From: Enemella evansiae
GTDB taxonomy: Bacteria; Pseudomonadota; Alphaproteobacteria; Rhodobacterales; Rhodobacteraceae
DNA: 64,000 bases
Assembly (NCBI GenBank): GCA_017255395.1
Contig: JAFKDC010000004.1
Location: 124,001-188,000 of the forward strand
Direction: 5' to 3'
Part shown: positions 10,295 through 53,518 of the stretch, piece by piece
Layout of the letters: each line of letters begins with the position of its first letter
How positions within the stretch are numbered: position 1 is the stretch's first letter
The notes under the pieces: generated by a model
Told to the model about the DNA's origin: nothing
The model's database searches: none
What the model saw: the letters and a program-made list of their open reading frames with translations, nothing else
Made by a program: the position numbers and the translations under genes

Positions 10295-11113
10295 ATGCCC
10301 GCCGCCACGCCAGTCCTGTCCCCCCAGCGCCGCCGGTTCCTGACCGATACGGCGCGCATGGCCGGCGGCTGCCTTGTCGCGGCAAGCGGATTGGCCTGGC
10401 TGGCGCGCGAGGCGCGGGCGCTTCCGGCAGAGGCGTTGCGCCCACCCGGCGCCCTGCCCGAGGCCGAGTTTCTCTCCGCCTGCATCCGCTGCGGGCTTTG
10501 CGTGCGCGACTGCCCCTATGACACGCTATCGCTGGCCGAACTGGGCGCCGACGGCCCCGCCACCGGCACGCCCTATTTCACCGCCCGCGCGGTCCCCTGC
10601 GAGATGTGCGAGGACATCCCCTGTGTCGCCGCCTGCCCGACCGGCGCGCTTGACCAGAGCCTGACCGATATCGACGAGGCGCGGATGGGCACCGCGGTTC
10701 TGGTCGATCAGGAGAACTGCCTGAACTTCCTCGGCCTGCGCTGCGACGTCTGCTACCGGGTCTGCCCGGTCATCGACGCGGCGATCACGCTGGAGCTGTC
10801 GCACAACGACCGCTCGGGCCATCACGCGATCTTTGCGCCGACGGTCCATGCGGACCACTGCACCGGCTGCGGCGTCTGCGAGAAAAGCTGCGTCCTGCCG
10901 GAAGCCGCGATCAAGGTGCTGCCCCTGCGGCTGGCCCGGGGGGCCTCGGCAGAGCATTACCGCAGGGGCTGGGAAGAGCAGGACAGCAACGGCGCGCCGC
11001 TGGTCGACGGGTTGATCGACCTGCCCGACCGCCTGCCGGGAACGGGCACCGACAACCTGGCCGCGCCCGGCGGCTTCGATCCGGCCTTCACCCTGCCGGA
11101 GGCGGGACAATGA
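10295..11113 (+). CDS. napG: Quinol dehydrogenase ferredoxin subunit NapG
   Basis: 272 residues from the ATG that follows AAGGAGG; a longer frame upstream lacks a ribosome binding site. The N-terminus has a twin-arginine-like [10 protein letters not shown] motif. Four [4Fe-4S] cysteine groups follow: [43 protein letters not shown] and [11 protein letters not shown]. NapG works with NapH to feed quinol electrons to periplasmic NapC/NapB. Overlaps napH by 4 bp. Confidence 0.95.
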
Positions 11114-12021
11114 AGGCCTCGACCGCCGCGCCCGTCGGGCAGGAGGCCATTCAGGCCAAGGGGTGGCTGCGCGCGCATCGCTTCCTGATCCTGCGCCGAA
11201 TGTCGCAGGCGGTCTTCCTGGCGCTGTTCCTGCTGGGGCCCTGGTTCGGCCTGTGGTGGGTCACCGGCACGCTGGCCGGGTCGCGCAGTTTCGGGGTGCT
11301 GCCGCTGACCGATCCCCTGGTGGCGTTGCAAAGCCTTGTTGCGGGGCACTGGCCCGCCGCGACGGCGCTGATCGGCGCGGGCATCGTTCTGGTGACCTAC
11401 GCGCTGATCGGCGGGCGGGTCTATTGTTCCTGGATCTGCCCGATCAACCCGGTGACGGACGCCGCGCATTGGCTGCACGACCGGCTTGGGCTGCACAAGG
11501 GCTGGCAGCCCAAGCGCCAAACCCGGCTCTGGCTGCTGGGCGCGGTGCTGGCCGTCTCGGCCCTGACCGGCACCATTGCCTGGGAAACCGTCAACCCGAT
11601 TACCATGCTGCACCGCGGGCTGGTCTTCGGCATGGGGTTCGCCTGGGCGCTGGTGGGGCTGGTCTTTCTCTTCGACCTGCTGGTGGCGCGCCGTGGCTGG
11701 TGCGGGCACCTGTGCCCGGTCGGCGCCTTTTACGGGCTGCTCGGCCAGCGCAGCCTGCTGCGGATCAGCGCCGCCCGGCGCGTGGCCTGCGACGACTGCA
11801 TGGATTGCTTCGCCGTCTGCCCGGAAAACCAGGTCATCGCCCCGGCCCTGCGCGGCAAGGACGGAGACACCCCGCTGATCCTGTCGCCGGACTGCACCAA
11901 TTGCGGGCGCTGCATCGACGTCTGTGCCGTCGATGTCTTCGCCTTCACCCATCGCTTCGACACCCGTGTCGAAGGCCCCTCACCCCGGCGGCCCCGCACG
12001 GCCGCCGACCAAGCCGCCTGA
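11110..12021 (+). CDS. napH: Quinol dehydrogenase membrane subunit NapH
   Basis: 303 residues. Four predicted membrane helices (about 30-50, 75-100, 140-160 and 175-195) alternate with cysteine motifs CSWICP and [10 protein letters not shown], and two C-terminal ferredoxin clusters follow ([12 protein letters not shown] and [11 protein letters not shown]). This is the NapH architecture. It oxidises quinol in the inner membrane together with NapG. Start overlaps the napG stop (ATGA). Confidence 0.95.
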
Positions 12022-12042
12022 CGGCGCCAACGGAGAGCTGAC

Positions 12043-12483
12043 ATGAAACTGCCGGTCAAAGCGGGCCTCGCCGCATTCGCCTCAACCCTGCTGCTGTCCG
12101 GGCTGGTCCTGGCGCAATCCAACAGCCATGTGCAATCGCTGCGCGGATCGGAGCTGGACACCACCCTGCCCGCCCCCGACCTTTATCAGCAGCAGCAAGG
12201 GCGCGAGGTGCGCAACTATCGCCAGCAGCCGCCGCTGATCCCGCATTCGATGGAACAGTACCAGATCGACCTGCGCACCAACCAATGCCTCAGCTGCCAC
12301 GACTGGACCAATGCGGGCGACCGCGGCGCCCCGACGCTGTCGATGACCCACTACCTCGATCGCGACGGCACCCAGCTGGATACCGTCGCGGGCACCCGCT
12401 GGTTCTGCAACCAGTGCCACGTGCCGCAGGCGGACGCCCCGGCCCTGGTCGACAACACGTTTGAACCCAGCGCATCGCGCTGA
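12043..12483 (+). CDS. napB: Periplasmic nitrate reductase cytochrome subunit NapB
   Basis: 146 residues with a cleavable signal peptide (to about residue 24, LVLA-Q) and two haem-binding motifs, CLSCH and CNQCH, as expected for dihaem NapB. It passes electrons from NapC to NapA in the periplasm. Preceded by a GGAGAG ribosome binding site and followed after 23 bp by napC. Length and order are typical. Confidence 0.95.
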   Translation: MKLPVKAGLAAFASTLLLSGLVLAQSNSHVQSLRGSELDTTLPAPDLYQQQQGREVRNYRQQPPLIPHSMEQYQIDLRTNQCLSCHDWTNAGDRGAPTLSMTHYLDRDGTQLDTVAGTRWFCNQCHVPQADAPALVDNTFEPSASR

Positions 12484-12506
12484 GGCTAGGCACGGAAGGA
12501 CAAGAC

Positions 12507-13208
12507 ATGGCCGAGAATGACACCAAGCCCGGTCGGCGGAATTTCCTGCTGCGCCTCTGGGACGCCTTCTGGAGCCCGACGGGCGTGCTCAGCACGGGCT
12601 TCCTGCTGATCGCCGGCTTCATCGGCGGCATCCTGTTCTGGGGCGGCTTTCACTGGTCGCTTGAACTGACCAACACCGAGGAGTTCTGCACCTCCTGCCA
12701 CACGATGGAAACGAACCTCGGCGAGTACCGCGAGACGATCCACTACAACAACCACTCGGGTGTGCGGGCGATCTGTTCCGACTGCCACGTCCCGCACGAG
12801 TGGCAATACAAGATGAAGGCCAAGATCATGGCCGTGAAGGACGTCTACCACGAGGTGTTGGGCACCATCTCGACCGAAGAGAAATACGAAGCGCGCCGGT
12901 TGGAAATGGCGGCGGCGGTCTGGAAAAAGATGAAGGCCAGCGACTCGCGCGAGTGCCGCAACTGCCATGCTTTCGAGTACATGGACTTCACCCTTCAGGA
13001 GACCCGCGCCGCCGACAATCACCAGCGCGCCATCGACGAGAGCATGACCTGTATCGATTGCCATCAGGGCATCGCCCACGACCTGCCGCCGGGCTACCAG
13101 GAAGAATACGATCACGTGGTCGAAACGCTGGCCCGGTCCGGCGCGGCACCGGCCGCGGGCACCGACATGGCTGCCATCCGGTCATGGCTGAAGGGTGCGG
13201 GCGAATGA
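12507..13208 (+). CDS. napC: NapC/NirT family tetrahaem cytochrome c
   Basis: 233 residues: one N-terminal membrane anchor (about 27-50) and four CxxCH motifs (CTSCH, CSDCH, CRNCH, CIDCH), the standard NapC set. It oxidises quinol at the membrane and reduces NapB. With napGH also present, two quinol entry routes coexist in this operon. Start ATG follows AAGGAC. Confidence 0.95.
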   Translation: MAENDTKPGRRNFLLRLWDAFWSPTGVLSTGFLLIAGFIGGILFWGGFHWSLELTNTEEFCTSCHTMETNLGEYRETIHYNNHSGVRAICSDCHVPHEWQYKMKAKIMAVKDVYHEVLGTISTEEKYEARRLEMAAAVWKKMKASDSRECRNCHAFEYMDFTLQETRAADNHQRAIDESMTCIDCHQGIAHDLPPGYQEEYDHVVETLARSGAAPAAGTDMAAIRSWLKGAGE

Positions 13209-13263
13209 CCGCGCGCGCGCCCATCCGCCCTTCCGACAACCGCCGCATGACGGAGTGATACAG

Positions 13264-13536
13264 ATGCTCAGTTTTCTCGATCTTCTCGGCACCATCGGCG
13301 CAAGCGTGCTGGGCCTGCCCGGCATCATCGGCGTCGCGCTTGGCATGGCGACACGGAAATGGGCGCTGGCCGCCGGGCTGGGCGGGCTGATCGGATTGCT
13401 GGCGCCGATGATCCTTGGCGGATCGCATTCGACCCATGTGGCGATCACGCCGATGGAATACACGATCTCGGTTCTGGTCGGGCTGCTGGCCGGTCTGGTC
13501 GGATGCGCCATCCGCCACAAGGGCGCCAGAATCTGA
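13264..13536 (+). CDS. Small membrane protein after napC
   Basis: 90 residues with three predicted hydrophobic helices (about 5-28, 32-52 and 62-83) rich in Gly, Leu and Ala; no recognised family. The ATG is preceded by GGAGTGATACAG. It lies 55 bp after napC on the same strand, so it is probably the last gene of the nap operon. No cysteines or histidines that would suggest cofactor binding. It is not a standard nap component; NapE, the usual small membrane protein, is shorter with one helix. Confidence 0.6.
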   Translation: MLSFLDLLGTIGASVLGLPGIIGVALGMATRKWALAAGLGGLIGLLAPMILGGSHSTHVAITPMEYTISVLVGLLAGLVGCAIRHKGARI

Positions 13537-13552
13537 GGCGCGGCCCGGGGGC

Positions 13553-14056
13553 CTAACCGGCCAGCGCCCCGCGCAGCCAGTCGTCGAGGGCCGCGGCCCC
13601 GGCCCCGACCTGCGACCCAAGCCCGCCGGCGAAACGCAGGAACCCGTCGCGGTTGCGGGCATTGACCGCCGTCAGAACCGGAATGCCCTTCTCCAGCGCA
13701 AGGGCGAGCACCGGCGCAAAGCCGCGCCCGGCACATTCCTGCGCGCCGAACTTGTTCAGGATCAGCACATCGGCCCCCTCGCGCAGCCGGAGCGTCACCG
13801 CCTCCGCCGCCGCTTCCAGAGACCCCGGATCGAGACGGCAGCCCCGGGACCCGGCCCCCAGCTTCTGCGAGATTTCCAGCGCCGGGCCGCGCGGCAGAAC
13901 GGCAAGCTCCATGTCGCAGGGATGCGCGCCCTCTGTCGGCGCGCGGGATTGCACGATACCGGCAACCACATGGCCCTCTGCCCTCAGTCTTTCGGCAAGC
14001 GAGGCCAGCAGGCGATCCGCCTCCCCCCGCGTTTCGGAAAGGATATATCCGAGCAC
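13553..14056 (-). CDS. DUF2478 domain-containing protein (molybdenum-metabolism associated)
   Basis: 167 residues from a GTG with AGAAGGGGG five bases upstream; the longer frame to 14173 would overlap the upstream regulator and lacks this ribosome binding site. Begins VLGYILSETRGEADRLLASL and contains ADVLILNKFGAQE, matching DUF2478, a P-loop-like family usually encoded near molybdate transport or molybdoenzymes. It converges on the nap operon, whose NapA needs molybdenum, so a role in cofactor or metal supply is plausible but unproven. Probably transcribed with the Crp/Fnr gene upstream. Confidence 0.72.
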   Translation of the reverse strand: MLGYILSETRGEADRLLASLAERLRAEGHVVAGIVQSRAPTEGAHPCDMELAVLPRGPALEISQKLGAGSRGCRLDPGSLEAAAEAVTLRLREGADVLILNKFGAQECAGRGFAPVLALALEKGIPVLTAVNARNRDGFLRFAGGLGSQVGAGAAALDDWLRGALAG

Positions 14057-14132
14057 AACAGCCCCCTTCTTCTGTTCAGGTCGCGCAAGCGGGTCGCCCG
14101 CGGTCAAGGAAAGGCACGACCCGACAAACCGG

Positions 14133-14822
14133 TTACTCGGTTTCGCACAGGTCGCAAAAGCGCGACAGGTCATGGGTGTCCGCGATCCGCGCGGTGTTGC
14201 CCTCGACCGTCACCCCCCTGTTGCGCAGCCGGGCAAAGGCGCGCGACAGGCTTTCCGGCGACATGCCGATCCGCCCGGCGATGACGACCTTGTCGTAGGG
14301 CAGGCGCACATCGCAGGCGCCGCCCTGCCCCGGCGGCAGAAGCGACAGAAGGAACCGGGCCGCGCGCTGCGCCCCGTCCCGCAGCTTCAGCATTTCGATC
14401 TCGCGCACGAGGGCGTTCAGATGCGCGCGCGCCCCGGCCAGAATGGCGCCGCGCGTCTCTGGCGACCGGTCCATCAGGGACAGAACAAGGCTGACGGGCA
14501 ATTGCAGGGCCTGCACCTGGGTGATGGCCTCGGCGTGGACCATATGGGACGGGGCGCCAAGAACGGCGGCGTCCCCGATGGTCTGACCCGGGCCAAGCAC
14601 ATTGATGACCGCCTCTTGCCCGCGCGCGGTCACGCTGTACAGCTTGACCCAGCCCCCCATGATCACGAAAAGGTGCTGTGCCGGCGCCCCCGCCGAGAAG
14701 ACCGTCGTGCCGCGTTCGAACATGCGGACGGTGCCCTGATCGAGCAACCTGTCCGCTGCCTCTTTCGGGCACATCCCGATCAGATCCGCCCGTCGCGCCG
14801 CGTTTCTGAGAGCTTCGTTCAT
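14133..14822 (-). CDS. Crp/Fnr family transcriptional regulator
   Basis: 229 residues from the ATG at 14822. N-terminal cyclic-nucleotide-binding-like beta barrel (about 20-140, with HLFVIMGGWVKLYS and GQTIGDAAVL), a long dimerisation helix, and a C-terminal winged helix with VIAGRIGMSPESLSRAFARL as recognition region. It lacks the N-terminal cysteine cluster of FnrL, so it is more like DNR/NnrR-type sensors, but a CDLC pair sits at the very C-terminus. It is encoded near nap and may act at the dyad at 6805-6818. The effector is unknown. Confidence 0.85.
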   Translation of the reverse strand: MNEALRNAARRADLIGMCPKEAADRLLDQGTVRMFERGTTVFSAGAPAQHLFVIMGGWVKLYSVTARGQEAVINVLGPGQTIGDAAVLGAPSHMVHAEAITQVQALQLPVSLVLSLMDRSPETRGAILAGARAHLNALVREIEMLKLRDGAQRAARFLLSLLPPGQGGACDVRLPYDKVVIAGRIGMSPESLSRAFARLRNRGVTVEGNTARIADTHDLSRFCDLCETE

Positions 14823-15311
14823 CCGTCTGACTTTCCGTAGCTGGCATGACCCGGACGCGTGGTTCGAACGCGCCGGACGGCACAACGATACGCCGCAGCC
14901 CCGGCAGAGATGTTGCGGCAGCGCAAACTTCTGCCGCGATTTCCGGGACGCCCCCCTGACAGATCCGCAGCATTGGCGTGTCCTGTCAGGAATACTCACT
15001 TAATGGTTGTATAAAGCAACCGATTTGGCAGCGCCGCCACGCCCCTGGCGTTTGCATTTCAACGGAAAGGGCGCCGGTCGCGCAGATCATGTGACAGAGA
15101 AATCTATCTACCCCAGGATGATAACCGGAAATCATGAACGATAGAGCCCCGATAGAGGAAAAAGCGGCCCCACGACCGGGAAAGGCTTTGCCCCTCGCTT
15201 TCCAAGCAAGGGGACCGAAATGCGAAACATGTGCAAACCCGCCTTAGAAGGCCGGTAGCTGGGGAACGCGAGAGCAGGGCCTTGGGGGGCCGAGGCCCCG
15301 CCCCCGCGCGG
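14823..15311. other. Intergenic region upstream of the Crp/Fnr gene
   Basis: About 490 bp between the regulator start and the 3' end of the ABC-like gene. It contains an imperfect dyad GGTTG-N7-CAACC at 15005-15021 in an AT-richer stretch that may hold the regulator promoter. No gene is convincing here. Confidence 0.45.
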
Positions 15312-16895
15312 TCACTTAGGGGCATGCAGGCTGCATGGCTGTGGCGCGGGGCTTTCGGCGCCTTCAGCGCTACCCCAGAGAACAGTCGTTGGGGTCGCAT
15401 CGATCCAGTGCCGCACGGCTTCCGCGACCTCCGGCCGCGCGGCAGCGAAGTCCTGACCGACAAGCACAAGGCGCGGTTGGCACAGGGACGCGCGCACCAG
15501 ACTGACGGCCGTGCGCTCGGACAGCGACAATGTCCGCCCGCCCTCCGTAATTCTGCGGTCGAGATCGCCATCGGGGCACAGCACCGCCTTCAGCCGCAGC
15601 TGGCCGATCCTGTCACGCAGGGCCGCATCCTCGATCGAAACCCCGGTCCCGAAGGTCAGCGCGCGGCGCAGCGACCCTTGCAGGATCGGCACATCGGGAC
15701 CGATCCGGCAGAGGTTGCGCCGCAAGGCGCCGCGGCTCAGCGCATCCAGCGGGATGCCCGACATCCGGACCTGCCCGGCAGGTTTCGGGTCGCGCCCCAG
15801 AAGGATGTCGAAAAGCGCGGTTTCGGCACGTTCGCCAAGCGCGATGCGGCCTGCCTTGCCAGCAGCCAGCCTGAAGGAAAATGCGGGCGCGCCCGGCAGC
15901 TCCAGCGCCTCGATCCGCAGCGCCACCGGGCCCTTGGGCAGCCCGCGCGTGCCATAGGGGCCGCGCTGGCGGCGGGCCAATGCGGCGGCGCATTTCTCTC
16001 GCGCCGCGCGCCACCCGGCGTGCAGGTTCCAGACCGTGGCAAGGTTGCGCATCGGCGCAAGCAGCAGCCCCAGCGCCGAAAGCGCCGCGGCAATGGTCCC
16101 GGTGCCAAGCCCCTCTCGGGCGCCGATCAGCAGGATCAGCGCCGCCGTCAGCCCGGCCATCAGCTCGGGCACGGCGGTCAGAGCCTCGGCAAGGCGCAGC
16201 CGGTCAAGCGCGGCCTCGATCATCTGCCCCGACCGTCGGCGCAGCCGGTGCAGCTCTTTGTTCCGGCGGCCCAGCCGGTCGAGATCGGGGGCCAGCGCCA
16301 TGCGTTCGGTCATCTCGGCGGCGATGCGCCCCCGACGGGCGCGCAGGCGCCGGTGCAGCGGCGCAAGACGCCGCCCCCCCACGAAGATCAGCAGCAGCGC
16401 CACGCCAAGCGGCGGCAGCACCGCAAGCAGCAGCGCGGGCGACAGCAGGCCCAGCACCGCCAGAGTCGCCGGAATCAGGATCGCCCCCGCAATGAGGCGC
16501 GGCACCCCGCGCCCCGCCCAGTTGCGAAAGGCGGTCATATCGCCGACGAAACGCAGGCTGGAGTATCCGCTGCGCCGCGCCGCCACATCGCTGGCGGCCA
16601 TACCCGCCGCATGTTCGAAAAGCGCGGCGCGCAGGTCCAGCGCATAGCTCTGCGCCAGACGCTCGCCCTGCACCTGCGCCGCGATCCGTGCCGAGGCGAT
16701 GACCAGACCGGACAGGCTGAGCACCACCACCGGGACCAGCGGCAGGTCGGGACCGCCCGCGTGCAGCGCCTCGAACAGCGCGCGGGTGGCAAAGGCCGCG
16801 GCACCGGCGGCCAGCCCCTGCATCAGCGTCAGCAGCGTCACCCGGGCCAGCGGCGCGCGCCGCCCGGGGGCAAGAAGGCGGGGCATCGGGGTCAT
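15312..16895 (-). CDS. ABC-exporter-like protein with degenerate ATPase domain
   Basis: 527 residues. N-terminal exporter-type membrane domain (about residues 15-290, roughly six helices) fused to a C-terminal region that aligns by order with an ABC ATPase but has lost its motifs. The Walker A position reads ALGERAETALFD (no Gly-Lys-Ser), the signature reads TLSLSERTAVSLVRA, and the Walker B end reads LVLVGQDFA instead of Asp-Glu. ATP hydrolysis by this subunit alone looks impossible. Its ATG overlaps the stop of the DUF1611-like gene (ATGA). It could pair with an active half-transporter encoded elsewhere or act without ATP. Confidence 0.7.
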   Translation of the reverse strand: MTPMPRLLAPGRRAPLARVTLLTLMQGLAAGAAAFATRALFEALHAGGPDLPLVPVVVLSLSGLVIASARIAAQVQGERLAQSYALDLRAALFEHAAGMAASDVAARRSGYSSLRFVGDMTAFRNWAGRGVPRLIAGAILIPATLAVLGLLSPALLLAVLPPLGVALLLIFVGGRRLAPLHRRLRARRGRIAAEMTERMALAPDLDRLGRRNKELHRLRRRSGQMIEAALDRLRLAEALTAVPELMAGLTAALILLIGAREGLGTGTIAAALSALGLLLAPMRNLATVWNLHAGWRAAREKCAAALARRQRGPYGTRGLPKGPVALRIEALELPGAPAFSFRLAAGKAGRIALGERAETALFDILLGRDPKPAGQVRMSGIPLDALSRGALRRNLCRIGPDVPILQGSLRRALTFGTGVSIEDAALRDRIGQLRLKAVLCPDGDLDRRITEGGRTLSLSERTAVSLVRASLCQPRLVLVGQDFAAARPEVAEAVRHWIDATPTTVLWGSAEGAESPAPQPCSLHAPK

Positions 16896-17965
16896 GCAGC
16901 GTGCGACCAGTCCGCATTCGCCCGCAGCGCGAACCCGTTGGCCTCGGCGGGGTCCGACAGATCCGACTTGCGCAGCACCGGGATGCCCGTGGCGACCTCG
17001 GCCTCGCGGCTGGCCATCGGCGAACAGCTCAGCATTCCGGTCAGCAGGTCCGGGGCCAGCCCCAGTCGCGCCAGCTCGGCCACGCCACCGGCGGCGGCCA
17101 CCGCATCGCCACAGGCAAAGACCAGGCCAGAGATCCGGCTCTGGAACCACGGATCGGCGATGAGCTGCGCGGTTTCGCGCTGGAACAGCCCGTCAGCCAC
17201 CTCCATCACGGCAATCTCGCAGCCCTGGCGCTGCGCCTCGCCCAGCAGCCGCTCGATACCGCGCCGGATGCGCGGCAGCTCTTCAAGGTAGGTGGTCACC
17301 ATGCCCGCATCGGTGAAATCGCCGACATATTGCGCGCCGGTATCGCTGTATTCGTTGTAATCGCCGAAGGCGCCGGTGCCGGTGGCCTTGATCGCGGCGG
17401 TCTTCCATCCCGCCCGGCGCAGCCCCAGCGCAAGCTGCGCGGTGGCCAGCGTCTTGCCCGAGTTCATCGCCGTGCCCAGAACCGCGATCACCGGGATACG
17501 GGAGGGCTGGGCAGGATCGGGCAGCGCGAAGTGTTCCAGGTTGACCGGCCTGCCGTCCTGCCCCAGCAGGCGCCCCTTGGGCAGCAGCCGCGTGGCGGGC
17601 TTGATGCGCTCGTTGCGGGCGGTCATGCGACCGATGCAGCCGCCGCCCGCCAGCATGTCGGCGCCGTCCGCCGCGATTTCGGCGACACCCTCGAACTGGT
17701 CGGGCGCATAGCGTGCGCCGCAGGCCAGCACGACGAGATCGCCGGGAAACAGATCCGACGGCCGCCCCGAGGGCAGCTGGATGCGCCGGTGCTGGCCGAT
17801 CTGCGCAACCTGCGCGAGGATCAGATCGCCGGGGCGCGCCTCGGCAAAGCCGGTGTCGAGACCGCAGATCTGCGTGCGGTCCACACGGCGGGTCGAAAAG
17901 CTCCATTTCGCGCTGTCGAGCTGGGTTGTCAGGGCGGCGGTCGGGGATGTCAGGGCGGTGGTCAT
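16892..17965 (-). CDS. DUF1611-like P-loop protein (DgcN family-like)
   Basis: 357 residues. A beta-rich N-terminal domain (about 1-130) is followed by a P-loop domain starting VLGTAMNSGKTLATAQLALG (about 172-191) and a conserved AIKATGTGAFGDYNEYSDTG segment. This resembles DUF1611 proteins; characterised relatives (DgcN) N-acetylate D-glutamate. The N-terminal half differs from those, so the activity is uncertain. Start ATG follows AAAGGA. It sits between an alpha/beta hydrolase and the degenerate ABC protein and overlaps the latter, so the three are co-expressed. Confidence 0.6.
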   Translation of the reverse strand: MTTALTSPTAALTTQLDSAKWSFSTRRVDRTQICGLDTGFAEARPGDLILAQVAQIGQHRRIQLPSGRPSDLFPGDLVVLACGARYAPDQFEGVAEIAADGADMLAGGGCIGRMTARNERIKPATRLLPKGRLLGQDGRPVNLEHFALPDPAQPSRIPVIAVLGTAMNSGKTLATAQLALGLRRAGWKTAAIKATGTGAFGDYNEYSDTGAQYVGDFTDAGMVTTYLEELPRIRRGIERLLGEAQRQGCEIAVMEVADGLFQRETAQLIADPWFQSRISGLVFACGDAVAAAGGVAELARLGLAPDLLTGMLSCSPMASREAEVATGIPVLRKSDLSDPAEANGFALRANADWSHAA

Positions 17966-18015
17966 GAGAGGGGTCCTTTCAAGGGCGGGGAAGATGTTGA
18001 GGATCGGAAACAGGG

Positions 18016-18852
18016 TCAGGCGGCGCTGGACAGGCCGGTCTGCGCGGGGGCGGTCACCATCCGGGCCAACCCGGCGTGCCGGACGGCCCAGGCAACGTCA
18101 TGCGCGCAGCCCGGAAGCTCATGCAGGGCAATGCGGGGCGAACAGCCCTCTGCGGCGGCGGCACCGCGCAGCGCCTGAACATAGGTGCGGGCGCGGGCCA
18201 GACGGGTCTCGCCCTGAAGGCGGTCCAGTTCCGGTGTCTGGCGCAGTGCCTCGTCGCGCGTGGTGTCACGGCTGCCCACATAGACATGGATGGGACGGTC
18301 GAGAAAACGGCGCAGCCCGACGCCATGGCGGCGGGCCCAGAACAGATCGCGCGGCGCGGCGCTTTCGGCCAGCCCGTAGGGATAGGCCATCTGCCGGTTC
18401 GGCAGGCAGTACCAGCCCGCCGCCGCGACGTGCAGATCCGCAACGCGCTGGGGAAACAGCATGGCGAAGCGGTGCGCCAGCTGCGCGCCGCCGGAATGGC
18501 CGAACAGGCTGACCGGGCCCGACTGCTCGGGAAAGGCGGCCTCGAAGGCCGCGAGCAGCGCAAGCAGCGCCTGATCCGGCCGCGCCTTGCGCGAGGGGCG
18601 CTGGAACACCGGCCAGGCTCGGTCACCGAAGTGGGGAACGATGACGGTCCGGCCCGTGCGCTCCGCCTCGGGGCGGAAGAGCTCTGTCAGCTCGCGGGCG
18701 TTGCGGGAAATGCCGTGCAGCACCAGAAGCGGCGCCGCGCCACTGGGTCGGGTCGGCAGGACGACCCGGGCAGAAAGCCGCCCCGCCGGGCTGGTGCAGA
18801 CAAGGCTGGAGGTCTGGCGGGGCTGAAGGATCGAAGCGGGGGAACGGGGCAT
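18016..18852 (-). CDS. Alpha/beta hydrolase
   Basis: 278 residues. The LLVLHGISRNARE oxyanion region (about 42-54), nucleophile elbow GHSGG (about 118-122) and a late CAHDVAW histidine (about 253) form the expected catalytic set. Pattern is like polyhydroxybutyrate-depolymerase/esterase-type hydrolases. No clear signal peptide, so cytosolic unless the Ser/Pro-rich N-terminus is cleaved. AAGGAG lies ahead of the ATG. It is 76 bp downstream of the subtilase gene and 50 bp upstream of the DUF1611-like gene, all on one strand. Confidence 0.78.
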   Translation of the reverse strand: MPRSPASILQPRQTSSLVCTSPAGRLSARVVLPTRPSGAAPLLVLHGISRNARELTELFRPEAERTGRTVIVPHFGDRAWPVFQRPSRKARPDQALLALLAAFEAAFPEQSGPVSLFGHSGGAQLAHRFAMLFPQRVADLHVAAAGWYCLPNRQMAYPYGLAESAAPRDLFWARRHGVGLRRFLDRPIHVYVGSRDTTRDEALRQTPELDRLQGETRLARARTYVQALRGAAAAEGCSPRIALHELPGCAHDVAWAVRHAGLARMVTAPAQTGLSSAA

Positions 18853-18928: not shown

Positions 18929-20410
18929 TCAGGGGATTGTTTTCTGCTCTGTTTTCAGGGGCTTGACGCAGGCGTCCGTGACCGGAACCAGCCCGTGACC
19001 GTAAACGATGTCCGGTCCGGGATCCCCCAGATCGGTGGCCCCCGCGCGCAACGCCTCGGCGATCTCGGCGGCGCTCCGGTCGGGCTGGGCCTCGCGCAGG
19101 ATGGCCGCCGCCGCCGTGGCGAAGGGCACGGCGAAAGAGGTGCCGGTCTTCCAGCGTGCACCGCTGACAGAGGCCGCGGTCCAGACGTTCACCCCCGGGG
19201 CGGCCAGGTCGATATGCGGCCCCTGCACCGCACGCCGGTAGACCTGCTTGTCACGATCCACCGCCGTCACGGCCATCACATGGTCGTAGGCCGCCGGGTA
19301 ACGCGGCCCGGCACGCGGCCCGTCGTTCCCCGCCGCCGCGAGGATCAGGATATCGTTCTCGGCAACCAGCTGTGCCGTGATCTCTTCCAGAACCGCGTTT
19401 TCGGGCCCGGCAAGGCTGAGGTTGATCACCCGCACGTCTCGATCCGCCAGGAAAGACAGCGCCGATGCGAGGGTGAAGGCATCCGCGCGTTCGTCATTGC
19501 CCGCGCGGTGAAAGGAATCGACCGCGACCAGCGAGGCACCGGGCACAAGCCCGGGCGACCGGGTGCCCGGATCGCCGACCAGCAGCGCGGCGATGGCGGT
19601 GCCGTGCAGGCGTTTGGACGGCGGCAAGTCTTCGTCCGAGAGGCGATGCAGTTCCAGATCGGCCCCGGCAAAGGTCTGATGCGCGTCGTTGATGCCGGTG
19701 TCGATCATGCCGATGGCGACACTGCTGCCACATCCGTCGCGCGCGGGCGGCAGCGGCCAGCCGATGCTGAAGCGCGCCGGGCAGTCGCCGCCCTCGCAGT
19801 CCGGGGCAAAGCCCTGCTCGGTCCGGTAGTAGTGATTGAAATCCGCCTCGGGCGCCGAGGGCAGCGCCCGCAACCGCGCCCGCGCGGTCTCTAGCGTCAC
19901 GCCGGAGGGCACCGAAAGGCGGTGGATCTCGACCCCCAGCGCCGCCAGCTGGCGCTGCTCCAGCGAGCGGTACCCTTCGCTTTCCAGCGTGGCCAGATCC
20001 TCCGGCGAAAGGCCGTTTGCGATGATCTCCGCCCTGGCCTGCTCGGGCGGCGGCGGAGGCGCCGCGCGGCGCGGGGCCGCACGCGGCGCTTGCTGTTGCG
20101 GTGCCCGCTGCTGCTGGGGCGCGCGCTGCTGCTGCCGCGGCGCTACGGGTTCGCCCCGGAACAGCCGAAGCAGCCCGCCACCGTCCCTGGAGCCGCCGCT
20201 GCTGCGCGACGGGCTGCGGTCGTCATCGTCGTCGTCGTCATCATCATCATCGTCGTCATCATCGTCGTCATCGTCGTCGTCACCGCCGTCATCATCGTCG
20301 TCGTCATCGTCGGCCCATGCAGAGGTCGCAAGGCCCGGCCATGGGGCCTCGGCCGGAGAGAAGAGGGCGACAGAGGCAAGCATTTGAACAAGCAAGATTT
20401 TTCTGATCAT
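18929..20410 (-). CDS. S8 family serine peptidase (subtilase) with poly-aspartate region
   Basis: 493 residues. Start chosen at the ATG giving a signal peptide (MIRKILLVQM..., cleaved near SAWA-D, residue 33). Mature N-terminus: 8 Asp, Gly-Gly, then 21 Asp (34-64), then Gln/Pro/Arg-rich linker (about 90-125). The catalytic triad is present: Asp236 (MIDTG), His268 (LHGTA), Ser424 (GTSFA), plus oxyanion Asn361 (AAGND). Exported; the acidic run could bind calcium or a basic surface. Transcribed divergently from the ECF sigma gene 113 bp away, a probable regulatory link. Confidence 0.88.
   Translation of the reverse strand: MIRKILLVQMLASVALFSPAEAPWPGLATSAWADDDDDDDDGGDDDDDDDDDDDDDDDDDDDDDRSPSRSSGGSRDGGGLLRLFRGEPVAPRQQQRAPQQQRAPQQQAPRAAPRRAAPPPPPEQARAEIIANGLSPEDLATLESEGYRSLEQRQLAALGVEIHRLSVPSGVTLETARARLRALPSAPEADFNHYYRTEQGFAPDCEGGDCPARFSIGWPLPPARDGCGSSVAIGMIDTGINDAHQTFAGADLELHRLSDEDLPPSKRLHGTAIAALLVGDPGTRSPGLVPGASLVAVDSFHRAGNDERADAFTLASALSFLADRDVRVINLSLAGPENAVLEEITAQLVAENDILILAAAGNDGPRAGPRYPAAYDHVMAVTAVDRDKQVYRRAVQGPHIDLAAPGVNVWTAASVSGARWKTGTSFAVPFATAAAAILREAQPDRSAAEIAEALRAGATDLGDPGPDIVYGHGLVPVTDACVKPLKTEQKTIP
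20219..20311 (-). repeat. GAY trinucleotide repeat encoding poly-Asp
   Basis: About 29 Asp codons (GAC/GAT mixed), broken once by two Gly codons, at the N-terminus of the mature subtilase. Mixed codons make slippage less efficient than in a pure repeat, but length variation between strains is likely. Confidence 0.9.
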
Positions 20411-20523
20411 CGGGGCGGGTCTCTTTGTTGAATTGCAAATCGGGTCACGATGACTACGGTTGCGGTCAGACCTAATTCCATCCAATCCGTGCGGCAAACA
20501 CTTTGGATAGCGGGTACGCGGGT
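20411..20523. promoter_or_regulatory. Divergent control region between subtilase and ECF sigma factor
   Basis: 113 bp shared by the two start codons. On the minus strand GGAATT is followed after 16 bp by GTAGTC, similar to ECF promoters (GGAAC...GTC), which would suit the sigma factor driving the subtilase. Weak, motif-only evidence. Confidence 0.3.
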
Positions 20524-21012
20524 ATGAACGGCCGTTTCGAACATGACATCATCGCCCAACTCGTGCCCCTGCGCCGTTTCGCGCTGTCGCTGTGCCGCAG
20601 CCCGGATCTGGCCGACGATCTGGTGCAGACGACCGTTGAACGCGCGATTGCCGCGCGCGATCGCTATGATTGCACCCAGCGCCTGGAACCCTGGCTGTTC
20701 CGCATCCTGCGCAATGCCTGGCTGGACGTGATGCGGCGACGCAGGACGCGAGGCACCGAGGTCGATGTGATCGACTCGCCCGATGTCGTGGCGGTCGACG
20801 GCCGGCAGATCACCGATGCGCGGCTGATGCTGAACGCGACGGAAAAGGCGCTGGACGAGCTGCCCGACGAGCAGCGTGAGGTGATCCTGCTCGTGTGTTA
20901 CGAAGAGCTGTCCTATGCCGAGGCCGCCTCGGTTCTGGACATCCCGCGCGGCACGGTGATGAGCAGGCTGGCACGGGGCCGCATGGCTTTGGCAAAAAAA
21001 CTGGGAATATAA
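20524..21012 (+). CDS. ECF-family RNA polymerase sigma factor
   Basis: 162 residues. Region 2 (LSLCRSPDLADDLVQTTVER, PWLFRILRNAWLD) and region 4 (LDELPDEQREVILLVCYEEL, then SYAEAASVLDIPRGTVMSRL) are both clear; no extra domains. The start is the ATG giving the normal ECF length. The anti-sigma gene follows after 43 bp, the usual arrangement. Its targets probably include its own operon and perhaps the divergent subtilase. Confidence 0.9.
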   Translation: MNGRFEHDIIAQLVPLRRFALSLCRSPDLADDLVQTTVERAIAARDRYDCTQRLEPWLFRILRNAWLDVMRRRRTRGTEVDVIDSPDVVAVDGRQITDARLMLNATEKALDELPDEQREVILLVCYEELSYAEAASVLDIPRGTVMSRLARGRMALAKKLGI

Positions 21013-21055
21013 TCCGGCCCGGCACGTGGACAGAGGGACGAGGAGCAAGAGCGAC

Positions 21056-21820
21056 ATGGCAGAGCCCAAGCTAAGCGATGAAATCCTGATGGCCTACGCC
21101 GATGGCGAGCTGGACGACGAGACGGCGCGCGCCGTCGAGGCCGCCATCGAGGCGGACCCCGAGGTGGCCGAACGGGTGGCCCTGTTCGGCGACACCGCGC
21201 GTGTGCTGAAACAGGCCGCACAGGCCCGCCCCGTGTCCCCCCTGCCCGACGCGCTGATGGCGAAGATCGACAAGGCCTTCGCGCAGGCGAAGACCGCTTC
21301 GGATGCAACGGCAGAGCCGGTGGCGGATGTGGTTGTCCCCCTGCCCCGGCGCCGCAGGGTCGAATGGCAGCCCATGGCCCTGGCGGCAAGCATCACGCTG
21401 GCCATCGGTCTGGGGGGCGGCCTTATGCTTGGCCGGACCTCGACACCGCAGGCTCCTGCGACGGATTTCGCCGTGCTCTCGACCCCTGCGGTCAAGGCCG
21501 CACTGAACGACCTGCCCTCGGGCGAAGACCGTCAGGTGGCAGGCGGCGTCGTGCGCCCGATTGCCTCGTTTCACGACGCGGACGGCAGGCTGTGCCGGGA
21601 ATTCGAGTTCGATGAAAGCGCGCGGGCGCATGTCGCGGTCGCCTGCCACGACGAAGACAGCTGGGCGCTCCGCTTCGCGGTGATCGCCGATGTCGCGTCG
21701 GATGGCTATGCCCCGGCGTCGTCGCTGGATGCGCTGGAGGCCTATCTGGGCTCGATCGACGCGGGGGCGCCGCTTTCCGTCGAAAGCGAGGCCGACAGTC
21801 TGTCCGCCCTTGCACGCTAG
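21056..21820 (+). CDS. Anti-sigma factor (transmembrane, zinc-finger-like N-terminus absent)
   Basis: 254 residues. The cytosolic N-terminus (LSDEILMAYADGELDDETAR) is the standard anti-sigma domain found after ECF sigma genes, but lacks the HxxxCxxC zinc motif. One membrane helix at about 105-128 (LAASITLAIGLGGGLMLGRT) leads to a periplasmic domain of about 125 residues. It would hold the ECF factor at the membrane until an envelope signal, possibly proteolysis, releases it. Start ATG follows GAGGAG. Confidence 0.85.
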   Translation: MAEPKLSDEILMAYADGELDDETARAVEAAIEADPEVAERVALFGDTARVLKQAAQARPVSPLPDALMAKIDKAFAQAKTASDATAEPVADVVVPLPRRRRVEWQPMALAASITLAIGLGGGLMLGRTSTPQAPATDFAVLSTPAVKAALNDLPSGEDRQVAGGVVRPIASFHDADGRLCREFEFDESARAHVAVACHDEDSWALRFAVIADVASDGYAPASSLDALEAYLGSIDAGAPLSVESEADSLSALAR

Positions 21821-50195: not shown

Positions 50196-51574
50196 CCCGG
50201 CTCGCCACGGTGATCAAGGGCGGAGAGGTGCTCTTGCCCGACGGGCTGCATCGCGTCGATCTGGGGTTGGCGAATGGCAAGGTGGCGGGGGTCTATGCCC
50301 CCGGCACCGCGCCGGGTGCGGAAGAGACCATCGACGCCACCGGGCAGGTCGCCCTGCCCGGCATTGTCGACATACATTTCCACGTGCGCGCACCGGCCTA
50401 TCCCGAGCGCGGCACCGTGCAGTCAGAGACCCGCGCCGCCGCCGCCGGCGGCGTGACCACCCTGTTCGAGATGCCGATCTCCAAGCCCTGCTGTTCGACC
50501 CCCGAGGAGTTCGACCGGCGCCGCGCGCATTTCGCGGAAAACGCGGTTGTCGATTTCGCCCTCTACGCCGCGCCGGGCGATCTTGCCCCGGCCACCCGTG
50601 ACCGGTTTCTCGAACAGGGGGCGGTCGCCTTCAAGATCTTCACCACGCCCGCCCCGCCGGGCCGGGGCGACGAATTCGACGGGCTGGCCTTCCCGCGTGA
50701 GGACGACCAATATCGCGCCCTGTGCCTTCTGGCCGGGACCGGGCGTCCTTTGGTGGTTCATGCCGAAAGCGCCGACCTCCTGGGACATTTCGAGGCACAG
50801 GCGCGCGCGGAGCTCGATCCGGGCAGCGGCTATACCCACAACCGGGCACGACCCGCGGTCTGCGAAAGTGTCGCGGTCGCGAAACTGCTGGCGATGAACA
50901 TAACCGCCCAGGCCAGGCTGCACATCGCCCATGTCACCAGCGCCGAAACCGTGGCCGTGCTGCGCGCCTTTGCCGGTACGTCGGACTTCACCGCAGAGAC
51001 CTGTCCGCAATACCTCTTTGCGACCGAAAAGGATGTGGACCGCGCGGGCGTCTATGCAAAGGTCAATCCGCCCATCCGCACGCAGGCCGACCAAGAGGCC
51101 CTGTGGCAGGCGATTGCGGACGGGATCATCGACTACGTGACCACCGATCATGCGCCCTTCGCCCAAGCCGAGAAGCAGGCCGCCGAAGGGGACTTCTTTG
51201 CCGCACCGCCGGGCTCGCCGGGGATCGAGACGATCCTGCCCGCGATGCTGGATGCCGTCGCGGCGGGGCGGATGGATCTGAAACGGGCGCATGACCTGAT
51301 TTGCGCCAATGGCGCGCGGCGCTACGGGCTGTTCCCCGCGAAGGGCAGCCTTCTTCCCGGCGCGAACGCGGATGTCGCGCTGGTGGACCTGAACGGCACG
51401 ACAGAGGTGTCTCTCGGATCGCTCGTCAGCCACGCGCGCGACGTGGCCCACCTGTGGGAGGGGCGGCGCTTTCGGGGCAAGCTGCGGCGCACCCTTCTGG
51501 CAGGCCGCACGGTCTATGCCGACGGCGCGGTCACAGGCAAACCGGGCGACGGTCAATTCGTCGTCCCGGGCTGA
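50192..51574 (+). CDS. Dihydroorotase/allantoinase family cyclic amidohydrolase
   Basis: 460 residues. VDIHFHVRAP (HxH), AFKIFTTP with the lysine that is carbamylated in this family, VHAESAD, HIAHVTSAE and YVTTDHAPF with the catalytic Asp: all metal ligands are in place. The length and GGVTTLFEMP motif fit allantoinase/dihydroorotase-like enzymes that open cyclic ureides or imides. With PuuE-like, AllA-like and Ldh-family enzymes nearby, a cyclic ureide intermediate is suggested. Confidence 0.88.
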   Translation: MTRLATVIKGGEVLLPDGLHRVDLGLANGKVAGVYAPGTAPGAEETIDATGQVALPGIVDIHFHVRAPAYPERGTVQSETRAAAAGGVTTLFEMPISKPCCSTPEEFDRRRAHFAENAVVDFALYAAPGDLAPATRDRFLEQGAVAFKIFTTPAPPGRGDEFDGLAFPREDDQYRALCLLAGTGRPLVVHAESADLLGHFEAQARAELDPGSGYTHNRARPAVCESVAVAKLLAMNITAQARLHIAHVTSAETVAVLRAFAGTSDFTAETCPQYLFATEKDVDRAGVYAKVNPPIRTQADQEALWQAIADGIIDYVTTDHAPFAQAEKQAAEGDFFAAPPGSPGIETILPAMLDAVAAGRMDLKRAHDLICANGARRYGLFPAKGSLLPGANADVALVDLNGTTEVSLGSLVSHARDVAHLWEGRRFRGKLRRTLLAGRTVYADGAVTGKPGDGQFVVPG

Positions 51575-51689
51575 ACAGGTCGCCGCGCGGGCCATATCCG
51601 GGCGGCGATACGCGACGAACCACCAGATCCGCCCGACCGCCGGTCGGGCGGATCGGTGCGTGTCGGCACACTTCATGGGAGACACCGAG

Positions 51690-53516
51690 ATGCCATCACC
51701 TGCCGAGGTCATGCAGCCTGCCGACACAGCATCCTGGTCGGGCGGAATGCGCAACATTGCACGGGTCACGCGCCTGGCCTTGCGCCATCCCGGCGCGGTC
51801 GCGACGGCGGCGCTGGCGACCGCCCTCGCCGCGGCCATGCAACTGGCGATCCCGGTCCTGCTGGGGCGAGCCGTCGACCAGACCCAGGGCCTGACCGGCG
51901 CGGGGAATGACGGCGCGGTCCGGGCCCTTGCGATCACTGCGGGTCTTGTGCTCGGGGCCTCGGTGCTGCGCGGGCTCTTTACCACCCTTCAGAACTACTT
52001 CAGCGAATATGTCGGGCACCAGACGGCCTATGCCCTGCGGCTGGCCTATTACGACCGCATCCAGAACCTCAGCTTCGAGTTTCACAATCGCATGCATTCG
52101 GGGGATCTGATCACCCTTGGGATGCTCGATCTGGAAGCGGTGCGGATGTTCTTCTCGACCGGGCTGATACGGCTGATCCTGCTGACGCTGCTTATCGGCC
52201 TTGGCGGCTACATGCTGTTGTCAACGTCGCTGACACTCGGGCTTCTGGCACTCAGCTTCGTGCCCTTCGTCGCCTGGCGGTCCTCGGTGACCCAGTTGCG
52301 CCTGCGGGGCACCTGGCTGGAGCTTCAGGACAGGCTGTCCGATCTCAGCCGGGTGATGGAGGAAAACCTCTCCTCGACGCGGGTCGTCCGGGCCTTCGGC
52401 GCCCAGCCCTACGAAATGGAAAAATACCATGCCGTCTCCGCGCGTGCCCTGACCCTTGCACATGACCGGGTGGGCATCAGGGTCCGCAACACGTCGGCGA
52501 TGACCTTTTCCTTCCTGATCGCGATGGGGCTGGTCCTCTGGGTCGGGGGCGGAATGGTCCGGTCCGGCGAGATCACGGTCGGCACACTGACCTCCTTCCT
52601 GACCTTCATGACGATCCTCCAGATGCCGGTGCGCCAGCTGGGAATGGTGGTGAACTCATTCGCGCGCACGGCAACCTGCGGCGAACGGCTGTTTGCGCTT
52701 CTGGACCTCGAACCGGCCATCTCCAGCCGCACCGGCGCCCCCGATCTGAAGGTCGAACAGGGACGCCTGGTGGTCGAGGACCTCGCCTACAGCTACCCGG
52801 ACGCGGAAAGAACCTCGCTGGATGGCATCTCTTTCGAGGCGCGACGCGGCGAAACCATCGGCCTGATCGGGCCACCGGGCAGCGGCAAGAGCACGCTCGC
52901 GCATCTGATCGCGCGCTACCACGATCCGGATCGGGGGCGAATCCTGATCGACGGACAGGACATCCGCGACGTGTCGCTTGGCTCGCTGCGCCGGGCGGTC
53001 GTGGTGACGCAGCAGGATTCCTTTCTCTTCACCACCTCCCTTGAGAACAACATCGCCTATGGCGACCCCTGGGCCACGCGCGAAGCGGTGCGGCGGGCCA
53101 GCGACCGTGCCGAACTCGACCAGTTCGTCGCCGGTCTGCCGGACGGCTATGAAACCGCGGTCGGTGAACGGGGCGTGTCGCTTTCCGGCGGGCAACGCCA
53201 GCGCATGAACATCGCACGGAGCCTGCTGCTGGATCCCGAGATCCTGGTGTTCGACGATTCCACCGCCGCAATCGACGCGGGCACCGAAGCCCGCATTCGC
53301 AAGGCCGTGACCGCCACGGCGGACGACAGGATCACCATCATCATTGCCCATCGCCTCAGCTCGCTAATGCACGCGGACCGCATTCTCGTGATGGAGAACG
53401 GGCGCATCGTCGAAACCGGCACCCATGCCGCGCTGCTGGCGCTTGGCGGACGCTACGCGGCGCTTCATGAATTGCAATTCGGTGCCGGGACGGCGCCAGA
53501 GACCGAGGCAGAGTGA
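51690..53516 (+). CDS. ABC exporter half-transporter 1 (degenerate catalytic site)
   Basis: 608 residues from the ATG after GGGAGA; an ATG at 51675 is an alternative. Six-helix exporter domain (about 30-320) and a C-terminal ATPase with Walker A GPPGSGKST, signature VSLSGGQRQR and Walker B ILVFDDST. The catalytic Glu is replaced by Asp, the pattern of the degenerate-site subunit in heterodimeric exporters such as TM287/288 and BmrCD. The next gene supplies the partner. Probably exports a product or the toxic substrate of this cluster. Confidence 0.88.
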   Translation: MPSPAEVMQPADTASWSGGMRNIARVTRLALRHPGAVATAALATALAAAMQLAIPVLLGRAVDQTQGLTGAGNDGAVRALAITAGLVLGASVLRGLFTTLQNYFSEYVGHQTAYALRLAYYDRIQNLSFEFHNRMHSGDLITLGMLDLEAVRMFFSTGLIRLILLTLLIGLGGYMLLSTSLTLGLLALSFVPFVAWRSSVTQLRLRGTWLELQDRLSDLSRVMEENLSSTRVVRAFGAQPYEMEKYHAVSARALTLAHDRVGIRVRNTSAMTFSFLIAMGLVLWVGGGMVRSGEITVGTLTSFLTFMTILQMPVRQLGMVVNSFARTATCGERLFALLDLEPAISSRTGAPDLKVEQGRLVVEDLAYSYPDAERTSLDGISFEARRGETIGLIGPPGSGKSTLAHLIARYHDPDRGRILIDGQDIRDVSLGSLRRAVVVTQQDSFLFTTSLENNIAYGDPWATREAVRRASDRAELDQFVAGLPDGYETAVGERGVSLSGGQRQRMNIARSLLLDPEILVFDDSTAAIDAGTEARIRKAVTATADDRITIIIAHRLSSLMHADRILVMENGRIVETGTHAALLALGGRYAALHELQFGAGTAPETEAE

Positions 53517-53518
53517 CC

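Follow-up and report, generated by a model that had tools for sequence, protein, structure and literature searches.

A three-gene unit around an exporter-like protein without ATPase motifs

The window analysed here, a stretch of 64,000 nucleotides (nt) from contig JAFKDC010000004.1 of Enemella evansiae (assembly GCA_017255395.1), contains on its reverse strand a unit of three open reading frames. An alpha/beta hydrolase of 278 amino acids (aa) (P0003, 18016-18852) precedes a P-loop protein of 357 aa (P0002, 16892-17965) and an ATP-binding cassette (ABC) exporter-like protein of 527 aa (P0001, 15312-16895), and the genes of the latter two overlap by a shared ATGA. P0001 combines a six-helix membrane domain with an ABC-domain fold that lacks the ATPase motifs. 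This degenerate ABC (nucleotide-binding) domain is encoded at 15312-15941 on the reverse strand, corresponding to about residues 319-527. A first-pass annotation, made from the sequence alone, had described P0001 as an intact frame joined by overlap to the P-loop gene, in which the Walker A Lys, the Walker B Asp/Glu and the LSGGQ signature are replaced. The open frame and the overlap were found as described, and the replacements were confirmed by alignment, with the signature Ser alone being kept.

In an alignment with 12 canonical relatives, the Walker A Gly-Lys-Ser columns of P0001 are occupied by A357-E358-T359, the Walker B Asp and the catalytic Glu by G480 and Q481, and the H-loop His by A510. 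The signature, which reads LSLSER in the window, retains its Ser (S457), while its second Gly is replaced by S459. At the same columns the canonical relatives have G, K, S/T, S, G, D and E in 12 of 12 cases, and H in 10 of 12. The Q-loop region of P0001 deviates too; because the family's canonical relatives, inspected by eye, deviate there as well, the Q-loop was not counted as a loss. Judged from these columns, the P0001 lineage has lost the residues for ATP hydrolysis.

The domain itself is still present. The Pfam model ABC_membrane (PF00664) matches P0001 with 33.8 bits (cut-off 28), whereas ABC_tran reaches 20.3 bits, below its cut-off of 25. The structure prediction proposed earlier for the C-terminal domain was run, and the AlphaFold2 model (predicted local distance difference test score, pLDDT, 93.9; predicted template modelling score, pTM, 0.87) has the ABC-domain fold in place. 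It also predicts six long helices, the first of which starts at residue 10, and short helices at the coupling positions (residues 101-106 and 202-207). The best structural matches are ordinary ABC exporters, i.e. chains of MsbA, TmrAB and CydDC, with residues 3-523 aligned. The Foldseek template modelling (TM) score of the query to PaMsbA is 0.84, and VIA-align gives a Z score of 27.9 to one TmrAB chain over 515 residues at 3.2 Å. Among the NCBIfam models CydD scores best, but its 79.5 bits are far under the cut-off of 435, and membership of P0001 in CydD/CydC was rejected. With the type IV ABC exporters (MsbA, TmrAB, CydDC), P0001 thus shares the six-helix membrane domain, the coupling helices and the ABC-domain fold; it differs from them in lacking the Walker A motif, the second Gly of the signature, both Walker B residues and the His of the H-loop.

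In an ABC dimer the ATP sites are composite: to each of them one half contributes Walker A and Walker B, and the other half contributes the signature. Because P0001 has lost both the Walker and the signature sides, a dimer that contains it would have no complete canonical ATP site. This bears on the idea that P0001 is the degenerate half of a heterodimeric exporter with the active half encoded elsewhere. Degenerate sites are common in heterodimeric exporters (available sections of PMC7756269), and the genome has other ABC exporters, including two overlapping ordinary exporter frames with strong ABC_membrane and ABC_tran matches side by side in the window (51393-55399, forward strand). However, neither composite site could be completed by a partner. 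A genome search with the P0001 family profile scored P0001 at 642 bits and the next protein at 177, so that this search found no close paralogue, and the operon contains no other ABC partner. Further ABC-domain frames lie within 6 kb of the P0001 homologue in 10 of 61 loci only, and none is so near in the window. (The 61 loci are those with a P0001 homologue; among them, L113 encodes a generic ABC exporter, and the L108 protein is identical to that of L107.) Exporters with a degenerate site, such as TAP, TM287/288 and CFTR, resemble P0001 in that catalytic residues were lost in an ABC domain under selection (PMC7756269, available sections). They differ in that one site is canonical and the degenerate one still binds ATP, as is generally known and as stated in the same source, whereas P0001 has no P-loop and no complete composite site. 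We therefore consider a heterodimeric role rather improbable.

Conservation of the motif losses and purifying selection

The check suggested by the first-pass annotation, whether orthologues share the losses, came out positive. The window clade comprises 30 rows of the alignment, some of them near-identical (e.g. L022/L023), and a GK[ST] motif is found in 0 of 30. A lone Lys occupies the Walker A Lys column in L024 only, the catalytic Glu is lost in 29 of 30 rows, the H-loop His in 30 of 30, and the second signature Gly is kept in 4 of 30. The exception for the catalytic Glu is L032 (8001-9509), a dead-clade member that retains an Asp-Glu Walker B while lacking Walker A.

The search for the gene trio in other genomes, also proposed earlier, found it complete at 26 of 26 loci from one scan. 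Most of these genomes are labelled as Paracoccus, Roseovarius, Roseivivax or further genera or bins of Rhodobacteraceae/Rhodobacterales, and one bin is labelled Pseudoxanthobacter (L030). The nearest orthologue, at 86%, is that of Celeribacter persicus (Roseobacteraceae, Rhodobacterales according to NCBI). The P0001 frame is open in the 26 orthologues; the copy at L034 is cut by a contig end.

Ratios of nonsynonymous to synonymous substitution rates (dN/dS) were calculated with the Nei-Gojobori method, using our own script, for 12 pairs, some of which share a member. Three pairs were set aside, i.e. a tenth motif-less pair (L083/L085), which was saturated, and two motif-bearing pairs. For the remaining nine motif-less pairs, dN/dS ranged from 0.10 to 0.30 in the dead ABC domain, from 0.08 to 0.20 in the membrane domain and from 0.09 to 0.26 in P0002. 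The dead domain is therefore under purifying selection, which is somewhat weaker yet clear.

Since the losses are common to a 30-row clade, the orthologue frames are open and the dN/dS of the dead domain is low, the losses go beyond chance, and a pseudogene or a sequencing artefact was rejected on the basis of the orthologues and dN/dS. That P0001 is a decaying copy on its way out could be argued from the lost residues, which are not replaced by one fixed set, and from its patchy distribution. P0001 was found in 4 of 121 sampled genomes at E 1e-20, counting its own, and the second genome of this genus gave no match; for P0002 the counts were 40 of 390 genomes in the order and 15 of 289 in the class (own genome counted in each), with a single match in the own genome (4.83 Mb, 93 contigs). 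The open frames in 26 orthologues, the dN/dS values and the sharing of the losses across genera argue strongly against decay, which we regard as extremely unlikely. The first-pass annotation had held that orthologues with intact motifs would make P0001 a lone decaying copy. Intact relatives do exist (12 rows), but only at a distance (23-39% identity), and within the clade of the window dead copies are the norm, so this explanation fails. The accompanying claim that the losses are not random decay is upheld, and it is plausible that P0001 is kept for another role.

Stepwise loss of the motifs beside a conserved P-loop gene

The exporters encoded beside P0002 homologues are found in several motif states. 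The canonical state is represented by 12 rows, of which four come from the window's family and the other eight from different families of the class, with identities to the window of 33-39% (five rows) and 23-31% (seven rows). In five rows, Walker A and the Walker B Asp are kept, the Glu is replaced by Ala and the signature is altered; in three further rows Walker A is kept and the Glu is lost. A second group without Walker A comprises eight rows, in addition to the 30 rows of the window clade. Throughout these states the gene order is stable: P0001 lies immediately 3′ of P0002 in 58 of 61 loci, and in 45 of these the two genes overlap by 4 nt.

A tree was calculated from the membrane domain alone for 56 rows, leaving out L034 (truncated), L113, L121, L108 and L022. 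The rows without Walker A do not form one clade, and forced monophyly was rejected (p value of the approximately unbiased test, p-AU, 2.3e-5), so that Walker A was lost at least twice. A single clade of all rows without the catalytic Glu was not rejected (p-AU 0.13), and we therefore do not claim a repeated loss of the Glu. Within a conserved gene unit, the ATPase motifs have disappeared stepwise from a gene that remained under selection.

ABC transporters are generally held to need ATP at one or more canonical sites. Here, one family beside one conserved P-loop gene spans canonical, hydrolysis-impaired, loop-less and fully dead members, and the order and the cost of motor loss therefore become testable.

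An Asp/Asn beta-hydroxylase-family gene was observed at 9 of 61 loci (L007 5885-6538, L091 2068-2637, L093 14237-14842, L111 10383-10958 and five more loci; Pfam was checked for three). It is present at 9 of 22 Walker-A-positive loci (including L113 and L108) and at 0 of 38 Walker-A-negative loci (Fisher 3e-5). A tie between loss of the ATPase and loss of this gene was nevertheless rejected: there are only three independent pairs, none of them supportive, and shared descent may explain the distribution.

The P-loop protein P0002

P0002 had been called DUF1611-like, a label that is not supported in this form. The Pfam model DUF1611 (PF07755) scores 20.1 bits against a cut-off of 25 and covers 43 residues only, in the P-loop portion. 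The loop G-T-A-M-N-S-G-K-T is kept, and G164, M167, G170, K171, T172, K193, E255 and D258 are invariant in 46 of 46 homologues, for which reason P0002 looks like an active enzyme. The predicted structure (pLDDT 95) has an all-beta N-terminal part (residues 35-134). In the Foldseek search, signal recognition particle (SRP) GTPases rank first as matches to the P-loop part, followed by CTP synthase and dethiobiotin synthetase; the matches to 1vcn, 1dbs and 3of5 have E values of 3.5e-7 to 3.9e-6 and TM scores of 0.37-0.41 of the query, for the P-loop part only. The P0002 profile matches BioD with E 0.0014 over about 50 residues, and the P0002 sequence by itself has no match to a solved structure at E 0.01. 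The resemblance to dethiobiotin synthetase, CTP synthase and DUF1611 is thus limited to the P-loop part, and P0002 differs from them by its additional all-beta part and the DUF1611 score below cut-off. The available sections of PMC10206079 mention neither DUF1611 nor ABC.

The overlap of the two genes raises the possibility that P0002 has replaced the ABC domain as the ATP motor of P0001. ArsA, which drives ArsB, offers an analogy. The invariant loop and a P-loop fold nearest to SRP-type GTPases and the CTP and dethiobiotin synthetases would fit such a motor. However, P0002 also stands next to exporters whose motifs are intact and so was not acquired as a substitute, and the invariant Lys193, Glu255 and Asp258 look like a catalytic set of the dethiobiotin-synthetase type. 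We give this exchange of motors little credence.

Two clusters contain a longer P0002 homologue, the C-terminal part of which matches Transposase_mut (L119 3739-15556 and L101 4356-15490). There, the P0002 homologue lies beside a fusion of a cyanophycin-synthetase-like (ATP-grasp) part and PGA_cap; the clusters also contain type I secretion genes, including an ABC exporter of that kind (models were run for L119 only), and a related PahZ1-type hydrolase. L101 has in addition two LPG_synthase_C proteins.

The hydrolase P0003

P0003 had been annotated simply as a hydrolase, which is too general; it belongs with PahZ1 and LpqC. The family profile matches LpqC with 8.5e-28 and two poly(Asp) hydrolase-1 entries with 2.1e-24 and 1.9e-23, and the single sequence matches the LpqC and poly(Asp) hydrolase-1 entries with 3.2e-16, 4.3e-16 and 6.2e-10. 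Shared stretches include GHS.G.Q..HRF, GWY and QG..R.AR. P0003 is homologous to PahZ1/LpqC beyond the general alpha/beta-hydrolase fold. S120 and H251 are invariant in 16 of 16 sequences, and from the GHSGG motif and their position they are probably the nucleophile and the catalytic His, respectively. PahZ1 cleaves the beta-amide bonds of poly(Asp) and was characterised on synthetic poly(Asp); unlike the trio-linked P0003, it is described in the available sections of PMC4456602 without mention of an exporter or a P-loop gene. This hydrolase may also point to the context in nature of a group of enzymes that became known through their action on a synthetic polymer.

Proposed role of the unit

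Tentatively, we favour the explanation that P0001 is an ATP-independent, exporter-like protein serving the P-loop/hydrolase enzyme pair, with an Asp-rich compound as the preferred candidate cargo. P0001 would act, most likely, as a homodimer and would still move its substrate across the inner membrane without burning ATP, either by proton coupling or downhill. The dead ABC domain may have been retained as a cytoplasmic clamp that holds the coupling helices. P0002, from the same gene unit, would probably activate a carboxylate with ATP, and P0003, likewise from this unit and a PahZ1/LpqC-type hydrolase by family, would presumably act as such. The cargo or target might be an Asp-rich or beta-Asp peptide or polymer, which is a lead only.

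A possible, if somewhat doubtful, alternative is that P0001 no longer moves anything and has turned into a scaffold or receptor, which would tether P0002 (perhaps also P0003) to the inner membrane or signal through it. Pseudo-enzymes often turn into scaffolds. In the core clade, identity to the window is far higher for P0002 (68-93%) than for P0001 (46-85%). The nucleotide loop of P0002 is retained throughout, and the adjacency of the two genes persists in every motif state; these observations speak for the alternative. In contrast, G110, R115, D119 and R185 of the membrane domain are invariant in all groups, and E78 and E197 are nearly so; we take these to be usual residues of ABC-exporter membrane domains. 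The dN/dS of the membrane domain is, moreover, tighter than a mere anchor should need.

For the ATP-independent exporter, a candidate for energy coupling is a glutamate in the predicted fifth transmembrane helix (TM5). Only six columns combine fixation of 95% or more in the window clade with a share of no more than 15% among Walker-A-positive relatives (M120, P132, R211, E237, I268 and S387), and two of them, R211 and E237, are charged. E237 is present in 30 of 30 rows of the window clade, in 2 of 20 Walker-A-positive rows and in 0 of 8 rows of the second dead group. The helices of the model place it in TM5, about nine residues before the hydrophobic peak. In the alignment, E237 and E194 are acidic in all 30 clade rows and E244 in 97%.

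SbmA consists of a membrane domain of the ABC type with no ABC domain attached. It moves peptides through protonation of a glutamate ladder, and its ancestor is taken to have been an ABC transporter whose ABC domain was later lost (available sections of PMC13316013). SbmA/BacA (SLiPT) thus works without an ATPase of its own by means of this ladder (PMC13316013, same sections), and P0001 has gained a fixed TM5 glutamate. The differences are that SbmA, according to this source, has no ABC domain, no coupling helices and an extra TM0, whereas the P0001 model includes the ABC-domain fold, has short helices where coupling helices are expected, and shows no TM0. Neither SbmA nor another SLiPT was among the structural matches listed, which is no evidence against the likeness, and the comparison with E237 may serve as a lead.

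If taken further, the comparison suggests a halfway house between an ABC exporter and a secondary transporter, in which the motor-less ABC domain is folded and selected, the new Glu and Arg mark a change to proton coupling, and the cargo, exported or taken up, is a poly-aspartate or beta-aspartyl product made and trimmed by the partner enzymes. In this complete form we consider the proposal unlikely. The P0001 family may nevertheless be a pump caught in mid-change of its energy source, and may show a stage that precedes the loss of the ABC domain as in SbmA (PMC13316013, available sections).

The proposed cargo is suggested by Asp-rich proteins near the unit. With a threshold of at least 12 Asp in 20 residues, applied within the fetched stretch, Asp-rich frames were found at 25 of the 61 loci. 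The carriers are unlike each other, and by eye all start with a signal peptide. They include subtilases, with the Asp stretch following the signal peptide, small proteins at L007 and L097 and, at L105 and L106, Asp-rich repeats at a distance of 4-5 kb. At four loci, small proteins with poly-Asp C-terminal tails are encoded directly upstream of the P-loop gene (L083 7026-7583, L084 8339-8749, L085 6571-6996, L087 7021-7473); both of those tested, from L084 and L087, are EF-hand proteins by Pfam. In the whole genome, (GAY)8 runs occur in one place only, window 20219-20311, within the subtilase gene beside the trio. The kinship of P0003 with poly(Asp) hydrolase-1, the cyanophycin-synthetase-like/PGA_cap fusions at L101 and L119 and the Asp/Asn-hydroxylase-family genes at nine loci also count in favour of this lead.

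Several observations weigh against transport of an Asp-rich cargo by an ATP-independent P0001. Asp-rich frames at the above threshold are absent from 36 of 61 loci, and 17 of 61 have no hydrolase nearby. Of 46 genomes with P0002, 38 belong to the family and 8 to other families; a strict Asp-run pattern occurs in 29 of the 46, and in 25 of the 38. The same pattern occurs in 19 of 46 genomes from this family that lack P0002 according to the full list of P0002 matches. Runs were listed for 13 positive genomes, and among these one lies within 10 kb of P0002 in G173 and G209 only. Of 20 Asp-run sites picked by hand from the run lists, nine lie in negative genomes, and 0 of these has a trio-type or subtilase/ECF (extracytoplasmic function) neighbour; 3 of the 11 unlinked sites in positive genomes had a subtilase nearby. 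The substrate of P0003 cannot be read from its family, because LpqC is as close as PahZ1. Given its modelled position ahead of the hydrophobic peak, E237 may not be buried in the membrane, and its fixation may represent one event, because it is confined to one clade. The second motif-less group, which has no E237, would need another way.

Since Asp runs are common without the trio, the Asp link is a lead only, and the data are suggestive of a link that is local and not exclusive. On the above counts, poly-Asp as a genome-wide marker of the trio is unsupported. At L140-L148, all from genomes without P0002, poly-Asp runs are found on assorted proteins, often as C-terminal tails.

Neighbouring genes

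In agreement with the earlier statement that the trio matches no known system, literature searches found no description of it. Near the P0001 homologue, a hydrolase is encoded at 44 of the 61 loci, a subtilase at 20, a histidine kinase at 20 and an ECF sigma factor at 18, and the regulation of the trio varies between loci. Three recurrent neighbours are present in the window: an S8 subtilase with a poly-Asp stretch after a signal-peptide-like start (18929-20497, reverse strand), an ECF sigma factor (20503-21012, forward strand) and a putative anti-sigma factor (zf-HC2; 21026-21820, forward strand). On the other side of the unit, at 11110-14999, the window encodes a ferredoxin-like protein, which we take to be NapH-like, a NapC/NirT cytochrome, a DUF2478 protein and a Crp-type regulator.

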